Shown here: positions 2,055 through 53,508 of the stretch, in pieces
Numbering within the stretch: the first letter of the stretch is position 1
Layout of the letters: each line of letters begins with the position of its first letter
Notes under the pieces: generated by a model
Told to the model about the DNA's origin: nothing
Databases searched by the model: none
What the model saw: the letters and a program-made list of their open reading frames with translations, nothing else
NCBI GenBank assembly: GCA_016218575.1
Contig: JACRDN010000005.1
Location: 62,001-126,000 of the forward strand
Source: Elusimicrobiota bacterium
Lineage (GTDB): Bacteria; Elusimicrobiota; Elusimicrobia; UBA1565; UBA9628
DNA length: 64,000 nucleotides
Reading direction: 5' to 3'
Translations under genes and position numbers: made by a program

Positions 2055-5000
2055 CTATTTGACGACCGCCACCTTTTGAGTCTTGGAAAATCCGGGGCCC
2101 GTCATGCGCAGTAGATAGATGCCGCTGGCCACGACCGTTCCGCTGTAATTGGTGCCGTTCCAGTCCACCGAACCCTTCCCGGCCGGGACCTCGCCGTCGA
2201 ATAGGGTCGAGACGAGTGTCCCCCCCAAGGTGTAGAGCCTGAGGGTCACTTTCCCGGGGCTTTGGACCTCGTATTTGATCGTGGTCTTTTCCCCCCGCGC
2301 CGGATTGAAGACATTGTTCCAGGCGGTGAGCGCGCTTTGGTTGGTGGTCAAGTTGAGCGCCTGGGAAAGCCCCAGGGAGACGGTACTGCCTGCCACGTTG
2401 TAGGCGAAGACCTCGAGATGGATCGTGCCCACGGCCGGAAATCGAGCGGCGAAGCCGGAGGCGAGCTGAAGCTGTCCGGTGATGTTGCCCAAGGCGTTGT
2501 TGGAAGAGAGAAATAGCAGGTAATCCCCGGCCTGGGCCGGGACGTGGGAGAGGGTGCCGGGAAGGGCGTTCTGGGCGTGGTCGCGCAGTTGGGCGTAGGC
2601 GAAATTATAATCCTGCGTGCGCGGGAAGGTCGTGACGCGCACCGAGAAGCTCAAGCGGTCGTTGTCGAAGGAGGCGCTTACTAGGCTTGCCGAGAGCGCC
2701 CCGGCGCTGGGGACGCTCAAGCGCAAAGTGTAGGGGGCGGTGGAGTTGACTCCGCTGTTGGAGCCTCCGCCCACGGTTTCACCGCCGGCTACCTGGAGGT
2801 AGAATTGCCCGGCCGAGCCGTTGTCGTAGGTGAGGCGAACCTGCGACTGAGTAGTGGTGCAGTCGGCGGGGGTGCAGAAGCCGGAATCCGTGTTGATGCC
2901 GTCGAAGGCGGGTGCGGCCGTAGCCACGGCACGGTGGTTCAAGTCGTACAGGGTCAGGGCGTAGCCCTTATAGAAGGAGCCGTCGGCGGGCAGGTCCATG
3001 GTGGCGGTGATGCGCCCGGCTCCGGCCCCGAAGGTGTAGAAGTCAAGGTCTCCCGCGGGATAGATGCTCGCGCTAACGATGGGTCGGGTGGCCACGTCCA
3101 CGGCCGTCTCGAAGCCGTCGTTTCGGGCGCTGGCGGTGTCGAAGGAGTCGCTCACGCCCGCGACCGAAGTGAGGCCGTGGGAGGCGAATTTGCTGTTGAT
3201 GACGGTTTGGGCCGTCCCCGCTCCACCGCAGGCCGAGACCAGACCCAGGCTGTCGGCACGGCGCATGGCGTCCAAGAACTCCTGGAAGCTCTCCGGAAAG
3301 AAGAGAAGCGCCTGGAAGGCCAAGCCGTCGGCGCAGGAGCGCCCGACCGCGGCTCCCAGGGCCGTCACCCGATCCTTGCGGATGTCCCAGAGGGTTTGGC
3401 TGAGAAAAAGGCTGTCGTCGTGGATTTCCCCGCTCCAGTTCGTGTTGCTGAGCACGCGGCAGGCGGTGTTGGTCGGGCAGTCGAGCTCGCGCAGGGGGCC
3501 GTTTCCACCCAAGGTGGTGACCACGAAGGTTCCGATCGCGCTCGTGTTGAGGGAGCTTGCCGAGAAATAGTCGGCCACGCCCTCGGAGATGGCTCCGGCC
3601 TGGCCGAAGTTCTGGATGGGCCATATCTTCTCGACCACGTAATGGGTGTATTCATGGTGTACGACCGTGGCGTCGTCGGTGAAGGCGTCGGATGGCTGGG
3701 CCGCTGAAACGTCGCCGAAATAGAGATCGTCGTGCTCCGGGTTGTAGAAGGCGTTGACGAGGTTCGGCCCGGCCAAGGCCATGGCCGCGACCGGGGCGCC
3801 GAGGTAGGCCGCGCTTGATTTGTTGACATCGGCCATGAAGTAGTCGTGCATGAGGTTCAAGTGGTAGAAGAGGCTGAGCTCGCTCCTCATCGCCTCATAG
3901 GCGTGCTCCGCGGGGCTCCAGGTGAAGGAGGAGCCAGCGGGGTTGATCACGGCCGGGGCGGTTAAGGCCAGCCAGCTCGAGAGGCTCACGTCGTAGCCCG
4001 TGTTCTGCCCCGATGAGTTGCTCTTGAGCCGCAGGGTCATGGTCTGGCCGGGGACCGCCGCGCCCTTAAACGAGCCCAGGCTGCCCAGATAGGCGGCCAC
4101 GGGGTTGCCAGCGGAGTCCAGGATGTGGACCTCGTCGTCGTCGGCGATGTCGAGGGCCTCGCCGAATTCCCCCGAGCTGATGGCCCCCACGTTAAAGCTC
4201 GAGAATATCGGAAGGAATTTGACCGCCGTCGGGGCCAGCGCGCTTATGTCGATCGTGGAAAGGTGGGTGGCGCTGTTGGAGTACGGGTGGGGCGAGGAGG
4301 CGGACGTCGCCACGGTACTCCAGACCCCGCTGCCGTTGTCGAAGTGCGCGCTCGGGCCCCTGGCGTTGGAGACGTTGACGAAGGGGCCCTGGAGCTGGGA
4401 GAAGACCTTGCCCGCGGTGGCGCTGCAGAAAAATCCCTGGCCGTAGATGGGGTCGCCTCCGGTCAGGGCGTAGCTCGAGCCGCTGGCGACATAGACCTTT
4501 TGATGCAGGAAAGGGCGGGCGACGGGGGTGGGAGTGGTCACCGGGTCTATGTCATAGACGAGTCCGCGCACGGTTCCGGAGGTGGTGCAGACGGGGGGCG
4601 CCTGGAATCTGAGGTCGTTGTAGCGGAATAGGATCTCCCCGGTATGGGCGTCCACGTAGTAGCGCCAGAGCCCGCCGCGGCCGCTCACGCTGAACTTCCA
4701 CGCCAAATGGCTGCGCCCGGACCTTTCATTGGGGAAGATGACGAGCGAGCCTTCGGAGCGCGGCGGCAGGCCCAGGTCGCGCTCCACGGCCTGCGCGGCC
4801 TGGCGGGCGTTGAGCGATGGCTCTGTGTCGAGAGAAAGGTCCGGCTCGAACCTCGAGTTGACGCCGAGCACGGAGCCGCCGGGGCCCAAGTGCACCTTTA
4901 CTCGGGCGAATTCCACCGGGAGTCCTCGGTAGGTTTGGCGGTAGAGAAGATGGGAATGCCCGTCAGAGGAGCTCTTTTTCTCGACCAGAAGGGAGCCCGG

Positions 5001-28873: not shown

Positions 28874-29062
28874 TAGTCAGAGGGCTGTCCCGGCGACGTC
28901 AATTCCGTAGTTATCCACAAAAATTCCCGGGAAGTTTTTGGGGATAACTTTTGCCTGGATTTCGTTTAACGTGCCTCACGGGGCCTAGGCCTTAAGGCCC
29001 ATGGCAATGGGTTCCGGCAAAAGCCCGCCCGGGGCAAGCATTTTTGCGTGGTGCCGCAAGAA
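28874..29062. other. Intergenic region between envelope operons
   Basis: This 190-bp stretch holds DnaA-box palindrome copy 2 and a 12-bp perfect palindrome GGCCTTAAGGCC at 28988-28999. No open frame with coding character is seen. The next gene's promoter follows immediately. Confidence 0.5.
28910..28948. repeat. DnaA-box palindrome, copy 2 (degenerate)
   Basis: A 39-bp inverted repeat, GTTATCCACAAAAATTCCCG on the left. The left box is a perfect TTATCCACA; the right reads TTATCCCCA on the reverse strand, one mismatch, and the left arm lacks one C. It lies downstream of the TMTC-like gene where a terminator would be expected. Confidence 0.8.
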
Positions 29063-29071
29063 TGATATAAT
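29063..29071 (+). promoter_or_regulatory. Extended -10 promoter of the first heptosyltransferase
   Basis: TGA followed by a perfect TATAAT (29066-29071). Six bases separate it from the ATC codon at 29078, which is where the protein is expected to start. Confidence 0.6.
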
Positions 29072-29077
29072 AGACCA

Positions 29078-30589
29078 ATCAAGAAAATCCTGGTCATCCG
29101 CCTTTCCTCATTGGGGGACGTGATCCTCACCGCCCCCGTCTATAAAAACCTCAAAAAAGCCTGGCCGGACTGCTCGATTTCTCTTTTGGTGAAAGAGCCG
29201 TTTGCCCAAGCTTTGGAGGGAAACCCCTATCTTGACGAGGTCATACCCTACCGAGGCCTGGCCTGGACCTTGCCCCGACTGAAGCGGGCGGGATTCACGC
29301 ATCTTCTCGATCTTCACGCAAACCTGAGGTCCTTCTTCCTGAGGCGCCTCTGCGGAGCGCCTCAGGTGCTGATCTACCGGAAGCTCGTCATGGCCCGCCG
29401 TCTATTTGTCGCCTTCGGCTGGCGCTCCCCCCAACTCGAAAAGCACACCGTGGACAAGTATCTGGAGCCGCTCGCGGCCTGGGGAGTTCCGGTTTCTTCG
29501 CGGAGCCTCGAATTGGGAGACTTTGAGATCCCCGCCCGGCGTCCGCCCGGGGGGGAGAGAGAGAAGATATTGATTGTTCAAAGCGCTTTTCTGGGAGACA
29601 CCTTGCTCACGTTGCCCCTGGCCAAGGGATTGAAGGCCCTCAGGCCGGAATGCACGGTGTCGGTGCTGACCTTGCCCCAGAGCGCGGAGCTTTTCCGGGG
29701 ACAGCCCGGCGTGGACGAGGTCCTGGAGGACGACAAGAATGGCCGTCATTCGGGAGCGGGCGGCCTTTTCAACCTCTCCAGGGAGCTCAAGGGCCGCGGC
29801 TTCGACGCGGCTGTGATCCCGCACCGCTCGCTTCGCAGCGCGGTTCTGGCCTGGCTTTCGGGAATCCCCGAGAGAGTGGGGTTTTCCTCGAGCGCGGGGA
29901 GGCTATTGCTTACCCAGTCAGTGCCATTCACATGGCTCATGCATGACTTGGAGCGGAATTTGGCGCTTTTGGGGCCATTTAAGGCCGGGGCCTTGGCTCC
30001 ACCTCGCGACTCTGTTTATCTCAACGTTGGCCAGAGCGCCCTGGAAGAGCTCGGGCGACGCCTGGCGGGCGCGGGAGTCGCCCAGGCAGACAAGCTTGTC
30101 GGCGTGCACCCAGGCTCGGCCTGGCCCACGAAGCAATGGCTTTCCGGGCGCTTTACCGAGGTCTGCCGCCGGTTTTCGCGCGATGGCGTCAAGGTGGTGC
30201 TGGTGGGCGGTCCCAAGGACGCGGCTATCTGCGCCGAGATCGCGCGGGAGTCGTGCGCTCTCGATTGGTCCGGGAAAACGAGCCTATCGGAGCTCAGGGC
30301 CCTCATGGGCCGGCTCTCTCTTTTCATCACCAATGACTCCGGCCCCATGCACATGGCGGCGGCGAGCGGTGTTCCCACGCTCGCGATATTCGGGCCGACA
30401 ACCCGCGAGCTCGGATTTTTCCCCTATGGCCCCAAGCACCGGGTCCTCGAGGCGGATTTGCCCTGCCGCCCCTGCGGGCTTCACGGCTCGCGAGAGTGCC
30501 CGCACGGGCATTTTCTTTGCATGCGCCTCATTTCCGCCGAGGAGGTTTGGAAGAACGCCGCGGAGATGCTGGGGGTTCGCGCCGGGTGA
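29078..30589 (+). CDS. GT9 heptosyltransferase family, non-canonical start
   Basis: An ADP-heptose:LPS heptosyltransferase-like protein of about 503 residues. The family N-terminus KKILVIRLSSLGDVILTAP is encoded from 29081, but the codon before it is ATC, not ATG; the frame has a stop at 29063 and no ATG, GTG or TTG until 29111, which would remove the first beta strand. A -10 box 6 nt before the ATC fits the leaderless spacing of other genes here, so initiation at ATC (29078) is my best placement. C-terminal GT9 marks are VGVHPGSAWPTKQW and FITNDSGPMHMAAASGVPT. It is longer than usual (about 350), with two Rossmann-like halves and an internal second ILIVQSAFLGDTLLTLP segment at the middle. 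Confidence 0.85.
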   Translation: MKKILVIRLSSLGDVILTAPVYKNLKKAWPDCSISLLVKEPFAQALEGNPYLDEVIPYRGLAWTLPRLKRAGFTHLLDLHANLRSFFLRRLCGAPQVLIYRKLVMARRLFVAFGWRSPQLEKHTVDKYLEPLAAWGVPVSSRSLELGDFEIPARRPPGGEREKILIVQSAFLGDTLLTLPLAKGLKALRPECTVSVLTLPQSAELFRGQPGVDEVLEDDKNGRHSGAGGLFNLSRELKGRGFDAAVIPHRSLRSAVLAWLSGIPERVGFSSSAGRLLLTQSVPFTWLMHDLERNLALLGPFKAGALAPPRDSVYLNVGQSALEELGRRLAGAGVAQADKLVGVHPGSAWPTKQWLSGRFTEVCRRFSRDGVKVVLVGGPKDAAICAEIARESCALDWSGKTSLSELRALMGRLSLFITNDSGPMHMAAASGVPTLAIFGPTTRELGFFPYGPKHRVLEADLPCRPCGLHGSRECPHGHFLCMRLISAEEVWKNAAEMLGVRAG

Positions 30590-31629
30590 GGATACTGCAC
30601 CTTCACGACGAGCCATGGGACTCCGGGATCGCCCATTACGCCCTGACCTTGGCCGCGGAGCAGAAAAGGCGCGGGCATCGGGTGTTCTTTTGGAGCCGAG
30701 AGGCCGCCTTCGCGGCGCAGGCGGCCAGGGATCTCGGTCTGGAGTGCCTGGAAGTTGCGTCGCCGTGGCGGGATTTGGCGGTTTTCAGGGAGAGGGCGCT
30801 TGCCTTGGGAGTGGAGATCATTAATGCCCATACTGGTTCTTCGCAGGCCTGGGGCGCCGCCTTGGCCTTGGGCGGGAATGTCCCGCTGGTGCGGACAAGG
30901 GCCGACGCCAGGCCGACCTCGAGGCATTTTTTTTCCCGTTTTATGGCCCGACGCACCGCGGCCTTCATCGCGGCCAATTCGCGGATCGCCGCGGAGCTCT
31001 CGCTGGCCTTTCCGGGCGCCAGAGTGGCCACGGTGTTGCCCGGCCTGCCGGACGCGGCGGCGCCTGCGCTGGCGGGTGAGCCAGTGGTCGGGATTCTGGG
31101 GCGCCTGGATCCCGTGAAAGGCCACGAGACTTTTCTTGAAGCCGCGGCGATGCTCCGGGAAGAGTTCCCTCTGGCCCGTTTTCTCGCCGCGGGAGCGGGC
31201 GAGCCCGCGCGAATGGAGGAGCTCGGGAGAAAATCCCGTAGCTTGGGCCTTGAGGGCAAAGTGGAATGGCTGGGCAAGGTTCCCGACGCCTTCGCCTTCA
31301 TTGCCTCCTGCCGGATAGGAGTCGTGGCCTCCATCGGCTCTGAGGCCGTCTCGCGCGCGGCCTTGGAGTGGATGTCGGCGGGCAGGCCCTTGATCGCCGC
31401 GGCGGTGGGCGGCATTCCCGACTTGGTCGAGGGTGCCGGGCTCCTGGTTGCCCCCCGGGCCCCCGGGGCCCTGGCCGAGGCCTTGAGGGGTTTGCTTGCT
31501 GCTCCGTCCCGGGCCGAGGAGCTGGGGGCCAAGGCCCGGAATAGTTTCGAGGCGCGCTTTCGCATAGGGCGCGCGGTCGAGGAAACGGAGAAGGTCTACG
31601 AAGACGAAATACGACGTTTTTCACATTGA
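30586..31629 (+). CDS. GT4-family glycosyltransferase
   Basis: A 347-residue GT-B enzyme beginning with GTG at the overlap with the preceding stop (GTGA); upstream in-frame sequence lies within the previous gene. N-terminal RILHLHDEPWDSGIAHYA, the donor-site region VVGILGRLDPVKGHETFLEAA and the E-x7-E-like segment SEAVSRAALEWMSAGRPLIA identify GT4. Likely extends the LPS core or another envelope glycan. It ends in CGTTTTTCACATTGA, where a one-base slip would join it to the next gene. Confidence 0.88.
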   Translation: MRILHLHDEPWDSGIAHYALTLAAEQKRRGHRVFFWSREAAFAAQAARDLGLECLEVASPWRDLAVFRERALALGVEIINAHTGSSQAWGAALALGGNVPLVRTRADARPTSRHFFSRFMARRTAAFIAANSRIAAELSLAFPGARVATVLPGLPDAAAPALAGEPVVGILGRLDPVKGHETFLEAAAMLREEFPLARFLAAGAGEPARMEELGRKSRSLGLEGKVEWLGKVPDAFAFIASCRIGVVASIGSEAVSRAALEWMSAGRPLIAAAVGGIPDLVEGAGLLVAPRAPGALAEALRGLLAAPSRAEELGAKARNSFEARFRIGRAVEETEKVYEDEIRRFSH

Positions 31630-32731
31630 CGGGGAGCGGGGATTTCGGGGCGGGGAGCGCCAACTCCTCTATCTGGCCTGCGCTTTGCGCGCCCGGGGCC
31701 ACCGCAACGTGATCGCCTGCCGGGAAGGCGGGCCCCTATACGAGCGCGCCCGGGCTTTGGGCTTCGAGGTTTTGGCCTTACCCTTTTTCATGGAATGGGA
31801 CCCGGCCAGCGCCTGGATTCTTAGGGCCGCCATGGCTAGGACCCCCAATCCGGTGGCCCACGCCCACACCGCCCACGCCGCGGGAACAGCGGTTATGGCC
31901 GGAATCGGGCGGGACTTCGTTGGCGTCATGCACCGGCGCGTGGATTTCCCCTTTAGTTCCTGGAGCGCGCGCTTCAAGTACGGACTGGCCGATCGGGTCG
32001 TCGCCGTGTCGTCCGCCATCAAGAGGGTCATGGTCCGGGCGGGGCTCGATGCCGCGAGGATAGAGGTCGTTTGCGATGGTGTCGCCGCGACCGAGGAGGA
32101 GCGGCGCTGGACCGCGGGCCTGCCCTCGTTTTCCCCCGCCTCGAGCCAGGAGAAGGCGGCCTTGCGTCGGAGTCTTTCTGAGGAGTTCTCGATCCCGGAG
32201 GGAGGCTTCTGGATCGGAAACCTCGCGGCCCTGGTCCCGCACAAGGACCACGACACTTTGCTCGCCGCGGCTCTTCTTGTTGTCCACAAGAATCTCCGGG
32301 CCTATTTCCTGGTCGCCGGCCAGGGGCCGGAGGAGGCGTGCCTCTTGGAGCAGGTCAAGAGGCTGAATCTCCTGGGGCGTGTATTCTTCCTGGGGCAGCG
32401 CGAGGACGCGCCGGCCCTCCTGAGGGCCTTGGACATTTTCGTATTATCTTCCTGGGGAGAGGGCATGGGAAGCGTGCTTTTGGAGGCCTCGGCGTGCCGC
32501 CTGCCGATCGCCGCCACCACGGCGGGAGGCATTCCCGAGATTGTGGAGGACGGCCGAAGCGGCCTTCTCTGCCGGCCCCGCGATCCCGAGGGCTTGTCCC
32601 GGAATATCCTGAGTCTGATGGACTCTCCCGCCTTGTCGCAATCCCTGGCGGACGAGGCCTTGGGGCGTCTGCCCCGCTTTGGCCTTGCGCGCATGGCCGA
32701 GCGCATGGAGGAGGTCTATGGTGCGGCTTAG
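31598..32731 (+). CDS. GT4-family glycosyltransferase, start codon unclear
   Basis: Homology-type evidence places the N-terminus well upstream of the first standard start (TTG, 31685): the frame encodes VFHIDGERGFRGGERQLLYL, the usual acceptor-side opening of such GT4 enzymes. That frame runs back to a stop at 31565 with no ATG, GTG or TTG. ACG at 31598 (followed by KTKYDVFHID) is the best-placed candidate; re-initiation or a +1 slip at the T5 run (31616-31621) from the preceding gene are alternatives. The donor region has NLAALVPHKDHDTLLAA and WGEGMGSVLLEASACRLPIA. Its stop overlaps the GT2 gene. Confidence 0.82.
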   Translation, partial: TKTKYDVFHIDGERGFRGGERQLLYLACALRARGHRNVIACREGGPLYERARALGFEVLALPFFMEWDPASAWILRAAMARTPNPVAHAHTAHAAGTAVMAGIGRDFVGVMHRRVDFPFSSWSARFKYGLADRVVAVSSAIKRVMVRAGLDAARIEVVCDGVAATEEERRWTAGLPSFSPASSQEKAALRRSLSEEFSIPEGGFWIGNLAALVPHKDHDTLLAAALLVVHKNLRAYFLVAGQGPEEACLLEQVKRLNLLGRVFFLGQREDAPALLRALDIFVLSSWGEGMGSVLLEASACRLPIAATTAGGIPEIVEDGRSGLLCRPRDPEGLSRNILSLMDSPALSQSLADEALGRLPRFGLARMAERMEEVYGAA

Positions 32732-45890: not shown

Positions 45891-46859
45891 CTACGTGAAG
45901 ATTTCCAGGTGGGCGTGCAGTCCGGCTTTGCGCGAGCGCCGGCAGGCCTTGTCGAAGAGAGCCTCGGCTCGGGTGGTTTTGCCTTGAGCATGCCAGAGCT
46001 GGGCCAAGGAAACTTCCGATAAGACCATGCCGCGGGCCTCGCCCGCCTTGGCGAAGGCCTTGAGGGCCTGCTGGAAGCGCTTTTCGGCCTCCCGCAGCCG
46101 GCCTTGGTGTAGGCAAACCTTGCCCAACCCCCAGTCAACGTAGGCAAGATCTACCGCGTCCTCCAGTAGGGAGTAAAGCCGATGGGCTTTATGGTAATTC
46201 CTCTCGGCCGGTCCGAGCATTCCCCGTTGCCTCAGCACGTTGGCCAGGCCGCAATGGGCGTAGGCCCGTCCGAAAACGTCGTCGGTGCCGGCCAGAAGAC
46301 GCGAGGCGCGGGCGTAATAATCCTCGGCCTCTTTAAAACGGCCCTGGATCCGGCAGGTGCCCCCGAGGCCGAAGAGGGCGTAGGCCTGTCCGGAGCGGTC
46401 CTCGGCCTTTCCGGCGTAGGCCAAAGAGGCGAGAAAAGCCTTCCTCGAGCCCTCCAAGTTCCCCGAGAATCGGAGGGATCCGCCCATGGCCCAAAGGATG
46501 TAGGCCGCCCCGACCCAATCGCCCTCCCGTTTGTAATGGATGAGAAATGGCTGAAGCTTGGCCAGGCTTTTCTTGTAGAGCCCCGCGGCCCGGTCCACCA
46601 GCGCGGATTCCAGGGTTAATTGCTGTCGTTGATCCGCGTCTTTCGCCGCCGAAGCGCTTGCGCGCAAGAGCTCGCGAGCCTCGGCGACGCCGCCGAGGCT
46701 TCTCTTCACGCTGGCCAAGGCCAAGCAGGAGTCGAACCATAGAGAGGCGCGGTCCGGGCTTGAGCTCAGGACCTTCCGGTAGAGAGGCTCGCAGCGGCTA
46801 AAATAGCCGCGCCCCCTCAAGGCTTCGGCTTTCCAGAAAAGACCCTCCAGGCTGCTCAT
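45891..46859 (-). CDS. TPR-repeat protein
   Basis: A 322-residue soluble protein of tandem tetratricopeptide repeats of about 36-40 residues, e.g. GQAYALFGLGGTCRIQGRF and GRAYAHCGLANVLRQRGML, with a regular A-x-G-L-G pattern from about residue 90 to 300. TPR arrays bind other proteins; no enzymatic domain is seen. The ATG lies 6 nt after a perfect -10 box, so the message is probably leaderless. Divergent from feoA with 79 bp between. Confidence 0.85.
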   Translation of the reverse strand: MSSLEGLFWKAEALRGRGYFSRCEPLYRKVLSSSPDRASLWFDSCLALASVKRSLGGVAEARELLRASASAAKDADQRQQLTLESALVDRAAGLYKKSLAKLQPFLIHYKREGDWVGAAYILWAMGGSLRFSGNLEGSRKAFLASLAYAGKAEDRSGQAYALFGLGGTCRIQGRFKEAEDYYARASRLLAGTDDVFGRAYAHCGLANVLRQRGMLGPAERNYHKAHRLYSLLEDAVDLAYVDWGLGKVCLHQGRLREAEKRFQQALKAFAKAGEARGMVLSEVSLAQLWHAQGKTTRAEALFDKACRRSRKAGLHAHLEIFT

Positions 46860-51324: not shown

Positions 51325-51839
51325 GGAACGGTTTGGGAAGTCTTTCGATGCTTTCGGGCGAGCTTCCGGTAGCCGGCCTCGCTCTGGCGCAGGTGCGCAA
51401 GCTCCTCGGTCTTGAGCGGCCGAACCGCCTTGGCTGGAAATCCCATGACCAGGCTTCGAGACGGGATCTTTAGCCCCTTGGGCACCAGGGCCCCGGCCGC
51501 GATCAGGCATTCCCGTCCGATCTCGGCCTCCATCACGATGGCCCCCATTCCCACCAGGCACAGGTCCCCGATCTTGGAGCCATGGACGATGGCTCCGTGC
51601 CCCACGGTCACGCCCTTGCCGATGATGGCCGGCAAAGCGCGGCGGCAATGCAGCACGGCATTGTCCTGGATGTTCGTGCCCGCCCCCACCCGGATGGCGT
51701 CCACGTCGCCCCGGAGCACGGCCATGGGCCAAATCGAAACCTCGGCTCCCACGGTCACGTCCCCGATGACTTCGCAGCTCTCATGGATGAACGCGGTCTT
51801 ATGTATCCGCGGGCTTTTCCCAGCGAAAGTCCTGATCAC
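51312..51839 (-). CDS. Gamma-carbonic anhydrase-like hexapeptide-repeat protein
   Basis: A 175-residue left-handed beta-helix protein with hexapeptide repeats (IHESCEVIGDVTVGAEVSIW, VGAGTNIQDNAVLH) and metal-ligand-type His residues in VLHC and TVGHGAIVHG, typical of the YrdA/PaaY gamma-CA group. Start is GTG, 6 nt after a perfect TATAAT on the reverse strand, so probably leaderless. Divergent from nadB by only 26 bp. Enzymatic activity is not certain in this group. Confidence 0.9.
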   Translation of the reverse strand: MIRTFAGKSPRIHKTAFIHESCEVIGDVTVGAEVSIWPMAVLRGDVDAIRVGAGTNIQDNAVLHCRRALPAIIGKGVTVGHGAIVHGSKIGDLCLVGMGAIVMEAEIGRECLIAAGALVPKGLKIPSRSLVMGFPAKAVRPLKTEELAHLRQSEAGYRKLARKHRKTSQTVPCRG

Positions 51840-53468: not shown

Positions 53469-53508
53469 GTTATCCACAAAAACTTCCCGGGAAATTTTTG
53501 TGGATAAC
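53469..53508. repeat. DnaA-box palindrome, copy 3
   Basis: A 40-bp near-perfect palindrome, GTTATCCACAAAAACTTCCC followed by its complement with one mismatch and no loop. Both ends are perfect DnaA boxes. It lies between the convergent nadB and an exported gene. Confidence 0.87.

Follow-up and report, generated by a model that had tools for sequence, protein, structure and literature searches.

A possible AUC start codon on a leaderless or nearly leaderless heptosyltransferase mRNA in an Elusimicrobia genome

A heptosyltransferase gene in the 64,000-nt stretch of DNA that we analyzed (the window) has a conserved N-terminus with no standard start codon in front of it. The reading that we prefer, and to which we give a probability of roughly one half, is that the gene is functional and has a weak AUC start, at ATC 29078, on a leaderless or nearly leaderless mRNA.

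Results

The start region of the heptosyltransferase gene

From position 29063 the bases read TGA TAT AAT AGA CCA ATC AAG AAA ATC CTG GTC ATC CGC CTT TCC TCA TTG. An earlier note on this DNA had claimed that no ATG, GTG or TTG lies between the in-frame TGA at 29063 and the TTG at 29111, and reading the frame bore this out (Table 1). A start upstream of the TGA was rejected as impossible in frame. The same note had placed the ATC 6 nt past the extended -10 element, the gap seen in the window's leaderless genes, and we found that gap again in the two window genes with leaderless spacing, an ATG at 46859 and a GTG at 51839, both on the minus strand. Under standard numbering of -10 elements, the six intervening bases would put the transcription start at about A29078. 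With a simple codon-usage score, the coding onset of the open reading frame (ORF) falls exactly on the ATC codon.

As in a leaderless gene, the proposed start codon lies about 6 nt past the -10 hexamer, with no leader predicted. The 5'-terminal AUG or GUG of such genes is replaced by ATC, so that the claim made here is that ATC works like one. In the manner of infC genes that begin with AUA, AUU or AUC, an AUN codon stands in for the standard start at a conserved N-terminus.

Table 1. Features of the heptosyltransferase start region, its gene and the two genes that follow.
Feature	Position	Strand	Basis
In-frame TGA stop, upstream of the heptosyltransferase gene	29063..29065	+	Read in frame
Extended -10 element TGATATAAT (TATAAT 29066-29071)	29063..29071	+	TATAAT plus 5-7 nt plus RTG enriched genome-wide
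ATC, the putative start codon; transcription predicted to begin on its first base or a few nt away	29078..29080	+	Inferred from -10 spacing
TTG, earliest standard start codon in frame (residue 12)	29111..29113	+	Frame reading, AlphaFold model
Two-module heptosyltransferase, 503 codons plus TGA stop	29078..30589	+	
N-terminal half-domain like the heptosyltransferase I N-terminus; strand 1 = residues 3-7	29078..29500	+	Residues 3-66 match TIGR02193
Complete heptosyltransferase II-like module	29558..30586	+	Residues 163-498 match TIGR02195 above cut-off
GT4 glycosyltransferase; GTG start overlaps the heptosyltransferase stop	30586..31629	+	
Next glycosyltransferase, from ACG 31598, without ATG, GTG or TTG at its conserved N-terminus	31598..32731	+	

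The N-terminal half of the protein

Judged by its profile matches, the protein joins an N-terminal half of heptosyltransferase I to a complete heptosyltransferase II, a fusion seen throughout the class. The second module scored 158.4 bits against the NCBIfam model TIGR02195 (cut-off 134.6), and the match to the GT9 family model PF01075 was 130 bits (cut-off 22). The N-terminal half covers profile positions 1-64 of 320 in the heptosyltransferase I model and reached 47 bits against a cut-off of 185, below what defines a heptosyltransferase I. Of 235 class genomes, 196 had the two-module protein at E<=1e-90; in a few of these the match covered just the second module. Locus L164 of genus g9 has a GTG directly 5' of a GT9 N-terminus, and in three g9 genomes the best match begins only at about residue 158.

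Solved relatives of the protein are 3tov, WaaF (1psw) and WaaC (2h1h). In alignments, residue 3 of the frame falls on the first positions of the heptosyltransferase models and opposite residue 2 of WaaC from E. coli. An AlphaFold model built with nine sequences (mean pLDDT 75.5, pTM 0.50) forms strand 1 from residues 3-7. Translation from TTG 29111, or from a different, non-standard codon such as CTG 29090, is in our judgment highly improbable. That TTG is the earliest codon acceptable to a gene caller, but it encodes residue 12, so a start there would remove strand 1 and half of the RLSSLGD loop. This loop is invariant among the nine aligned proteins, and none of the orthologs whose N-terminus could be read needs so late a start.

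Leaderless starts in this genome

We searched the whole genome (2.82 Mb in 23 contigs, 97% complete) for TATAAT followed at leaderless spacing by candidate start codons, with the reversed pattern as control. The pattern TATAATN{5,7}RTG had 62 matches against 7 in the control, an approximately 9-fold enrichment, suggesting that leaderless genes are common in this genome. The spacing was 6 nt in 35 of these 62 matches (23 ATG and 12 GTG). Leaderless RTG was enriched in the sister genus g8 as well, with 67 matches against 1 in genome G030, for example.

Across the whole genome there was no enrichment of ATC at TATAAT+5-7 (7 matches against 5 in the control), nor of YTG (12 against 42) or ATW (22 against 22) at leaderless spacing. 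CTG, TTG, ATA and ATT were dropped as leaderless starts in this genome because of these counts. The heptosyltransferase is the one ATC match among the seven that opens a long frame and has no adjacent ATG of its own, and we found no further leaderless ORF fronted by ATC in this genome. General use of ATC at leaderless starts was ruled out by the ATC count and by this single long-frame case.

The window also harbors a dispersed intergenic palindrome of about 40 bp, of the type GTTATCCACAAAAA-CTTCCCGGGAAG-TTTTTGTGGATAAC, at 859-898, 28910-28950 and 53469-53508, with a further copy at 4710-4748 of locus L068. Most copies carry a perfect, DnaA-box-like TTATCCACA on each arm. The core 11-mer of the palindrome was absent from 20 syntenic loci of relatives.

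Start codons of orthologs and of infC

We examined 93 ortholog loci, all from other genera, and left out two that had no N-terminal hit; of the ten relatives' loci with names, eight are Elusimicrobia metagenome assemblies. In 90 of the 91 orthologs with a readable N-terminus, an in-frame ATG, GTG or TTG stands at the KILV motif or before it. The sole exception, genome G032 (locus L159), has no standard start and carries CTG at the corresponding leaderless position, TAAAAT+6. In sister genus g8, all 12 orthologs start 5-6 nt past a -10 element, with TTG in 10, GTG in 1, CTG in 1 and ATG in none, suggesting that this gene habitually uses weak leaderless starts. Since TATAATN{5,6}TTG was only about 2-fold over control in 11 g8 genomes, where RTG was strongly enriched, the weak start seems to be peculiar to the heptosyltransferase gene and not to the genus.

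Most orthologs in the family begin one codon further upstream, at the position of the window's CCA. The earlier note had proposed either initiation at ATC or a recent change from ATG to ATC. We favor the first because of the position of the codon, its spacing, the conserved N-terminus, the weak leaderless starts of the orthologs and the use of AUC and AUA at infC. A recent change is possible; the nearest relatives (about 58-63% identity) have no ATG at the ATC column, and two more distant orthologs, L153 and L157, have ATG exactly there.

AUC and AUA appear to serve as infC starts in the bacterial family to which this genome belongs. The genome's own infC (L260, about 1480; G000:C20:196977) has no ATG, GTG or TTG before the conserved motif and reads AAAAAGGAG-CACCGTTCC-ATA, with the ATA after AAGGAG. 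We compared 24 infC loci, the own one and 23 from relatives, counting once a locus that was in two pieces (G036). No standard start was in frame in 8 of the 24, and 9 of the 24, read by eye, had ATA AAC or ATC AAC at the expected place.

A second start-less gene and the question of sequence error

We compared the median alignment start with the first standard start in homolog-supported loci of this genome. It flagged 19 loci out of 92 at first; when reference sequence was added, the number rose to 34 out of 176. Sorted by eye, the 176 loci contained two start-less genes, the heptosyltransferase and the glycosyltransferase that begins near ACG 31598 (the ACG gene). The remaining flagged loci fell into three kinds: antisense or shadow frames, frames overlapping an upstream gene, and genes with a standard start where one was expected. 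The survey covered part of the genome; infC with its ATA start is beyond that part and came to light in a separate search.

The frame of the ACG gene extends from 31568 to 32731; its conserved N-terminus begins near 31610, and its first standard start is TTG 31685. Relatives have ATG, GTG or TTG at the N-terminus, and ACG 31598 sits at the column where several of them have ATG or GTG, after a Shine-Dalgarno-like GGAGAAGG at 31587-31594. ACG is nevertheless a poor candidate for a start, since the central U is otherwise conserved (PMC4611024). Alternatively, translation of this gene may reinitiate past the upstream stop at 31627, or its start may be lost.

It is conceivable that the two genes share a local quality problem, since the ACG gene lies only 2.5 kb downstream. 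The ATC would then be a consensus or allelic artefact of metagenome assembly, with a standard start in most cells and a minority allele or a mis-called base in the contig. The assembly is in 23 contigs, all comparison genomes are from other genera, and a single substitution would yield MKKILV. We consider it somewhat unlikely. In a rough model with 156 genes (the 176 loci minus an estimated 20 shadow frames), random errors that removed 1 or 2 starts would be expected to produce about 19 or 38 new stops, but in the surveyed sample we saw no stop or frameshift interrupting a conserved gene. Two start lesions in one operon with no body lesions are odd for random error or decay. The start-less pair without broken genes therefore argues against random error and leaves room for a local consensus problem.

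The search for frameshifts began with 87 loose pairs, of which 37 passed a stricter reference check and 5 had an open reference frame. In three of the five the ORF was outside the selected gene set, and one of these recurs as the fourth pair in an overlapping locus. The fifth (25342-26136/26121-27437) is a pair of genes, an acyltransferase-like gene and waaA, which are separate in the window but share a single open frame in the loci of three relatives (L051, L052 and L256). One further pair, read in the sequence, proved to be two ordinary genes.

We also considered whether the start has truly been lost, so that the N-terminal half is no longer made. An internal start, for example a TTG preceding the complete heptosyltransferase II module, would then serve for translation of that module, unless the whole gene is silenced. 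The g9 loci described above and the nearby gene without a start would be consistent with this, as would the slightly greater divergence of the N-terminal half, whose similarity to the relatives (0.613 against a median of 0.673) is lower than that of each of 15 relatives to the others. That half has, however, kept its invariant motifs and an open frame, and neutral decay would be expected far more often in the 1.5-kb body of the gene than in its start codon; we regard the loss of the start as improbable. The waaA gene and the ACG gene have the same divergence ranking as the N-terminal half, and several window genes are somewhat more diverged than the relatives are among themselves, waaA and the N-terminal half most of all.

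Discussion

If ATC 29078 is the start, transcription by RNA polymerase would begin on A29078 or no more than a few nt away, and the mRNA, leaderless or nearly so, would have AUC as its first codon. The initiator tRNA would read this AUC inefficiently as formyl-Met, and the product, (f)M-KKILVIRLSSLGDV..., would be an enzyme of the lipopolysaccharide inner core made in low abundance.

Several points stand against an AUC start. Leaderless mRNAs of E. coli are strongly AUG-dependent (PMC4611024 and PMC9031893), AUC is a non-canonical start against which IF3 discriminates (the review PMC4611024), and ATC is not enriched at leaderless spacing genome-wide. Two further papers report that IF3 rejects start codons whose third base pairs weakly (PMC10158994) and that a B. 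subtilis lacZ fusion mutated to an AUC start was expressed at a much lower level (PMC10303841). Some bacteria use non-AUG (GUG) leaderless starts (PMC9031893), and start efficiencies for GUG, UUG and CUG are given second-hand in PMC11497404. We found no case of leaderless AUC initiation, and no paper on leaderless genes in Elusimicrobia, in the open-access literature that we searched. ACG, the codon at the neighboring start-less gene, is not of the AUN type, which makes a common local cause for the two genes conceivable.

Since IF3 discriminates against AUC, initiation at a leaderless AUC might tune lipopolysaccharide inner core synthesis in this bacterium to the amount of free IF3 or to how much 70S initiation takes place. 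The recurrence of TTG, GTG, CTG and ATC at this one position in the family would then reflect selection for a deliberately weak start. We offer this as a doubtful proposal; if true, infC-type control would extend to a leaderless envelope gene.

Textbook leaderless initiation relies on a 5'-terminal AUG. The use of UUG, GUG, CUG and AUC at one leaderless start of a conserved gene would show that 5'-terminal codons are read far more permissively in some phyla, and gene callers would miss or truncate genes with such starts. The 12 sister-genus orthologs, with their non-ATG starts at one homologous position, provide a ready test set.

The gene can be compared with three known systems. With infC genes that start at AUU, AUA or AUC it has the class of start codon in common; the infC of this genome differs in having a Shine-Dalgarno site and in encoding IF3 itself, neither of which holds for the heptosyltransferase gene. 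With the leaderless AUG and GUG genes of mycobacteria, streptomycetes and Deinococcus it shares a -10 element about 6 nt before the start and no room for a Shine-Dalgarno site, and it differs from them in that its start codon would be AUC. Finally, the protein resembles WaaC and WaaF of family GT9 in sequence and predicted fold, but unlike them it carries an extra heptosyltransferase I-like N-terminal half-domain in front.
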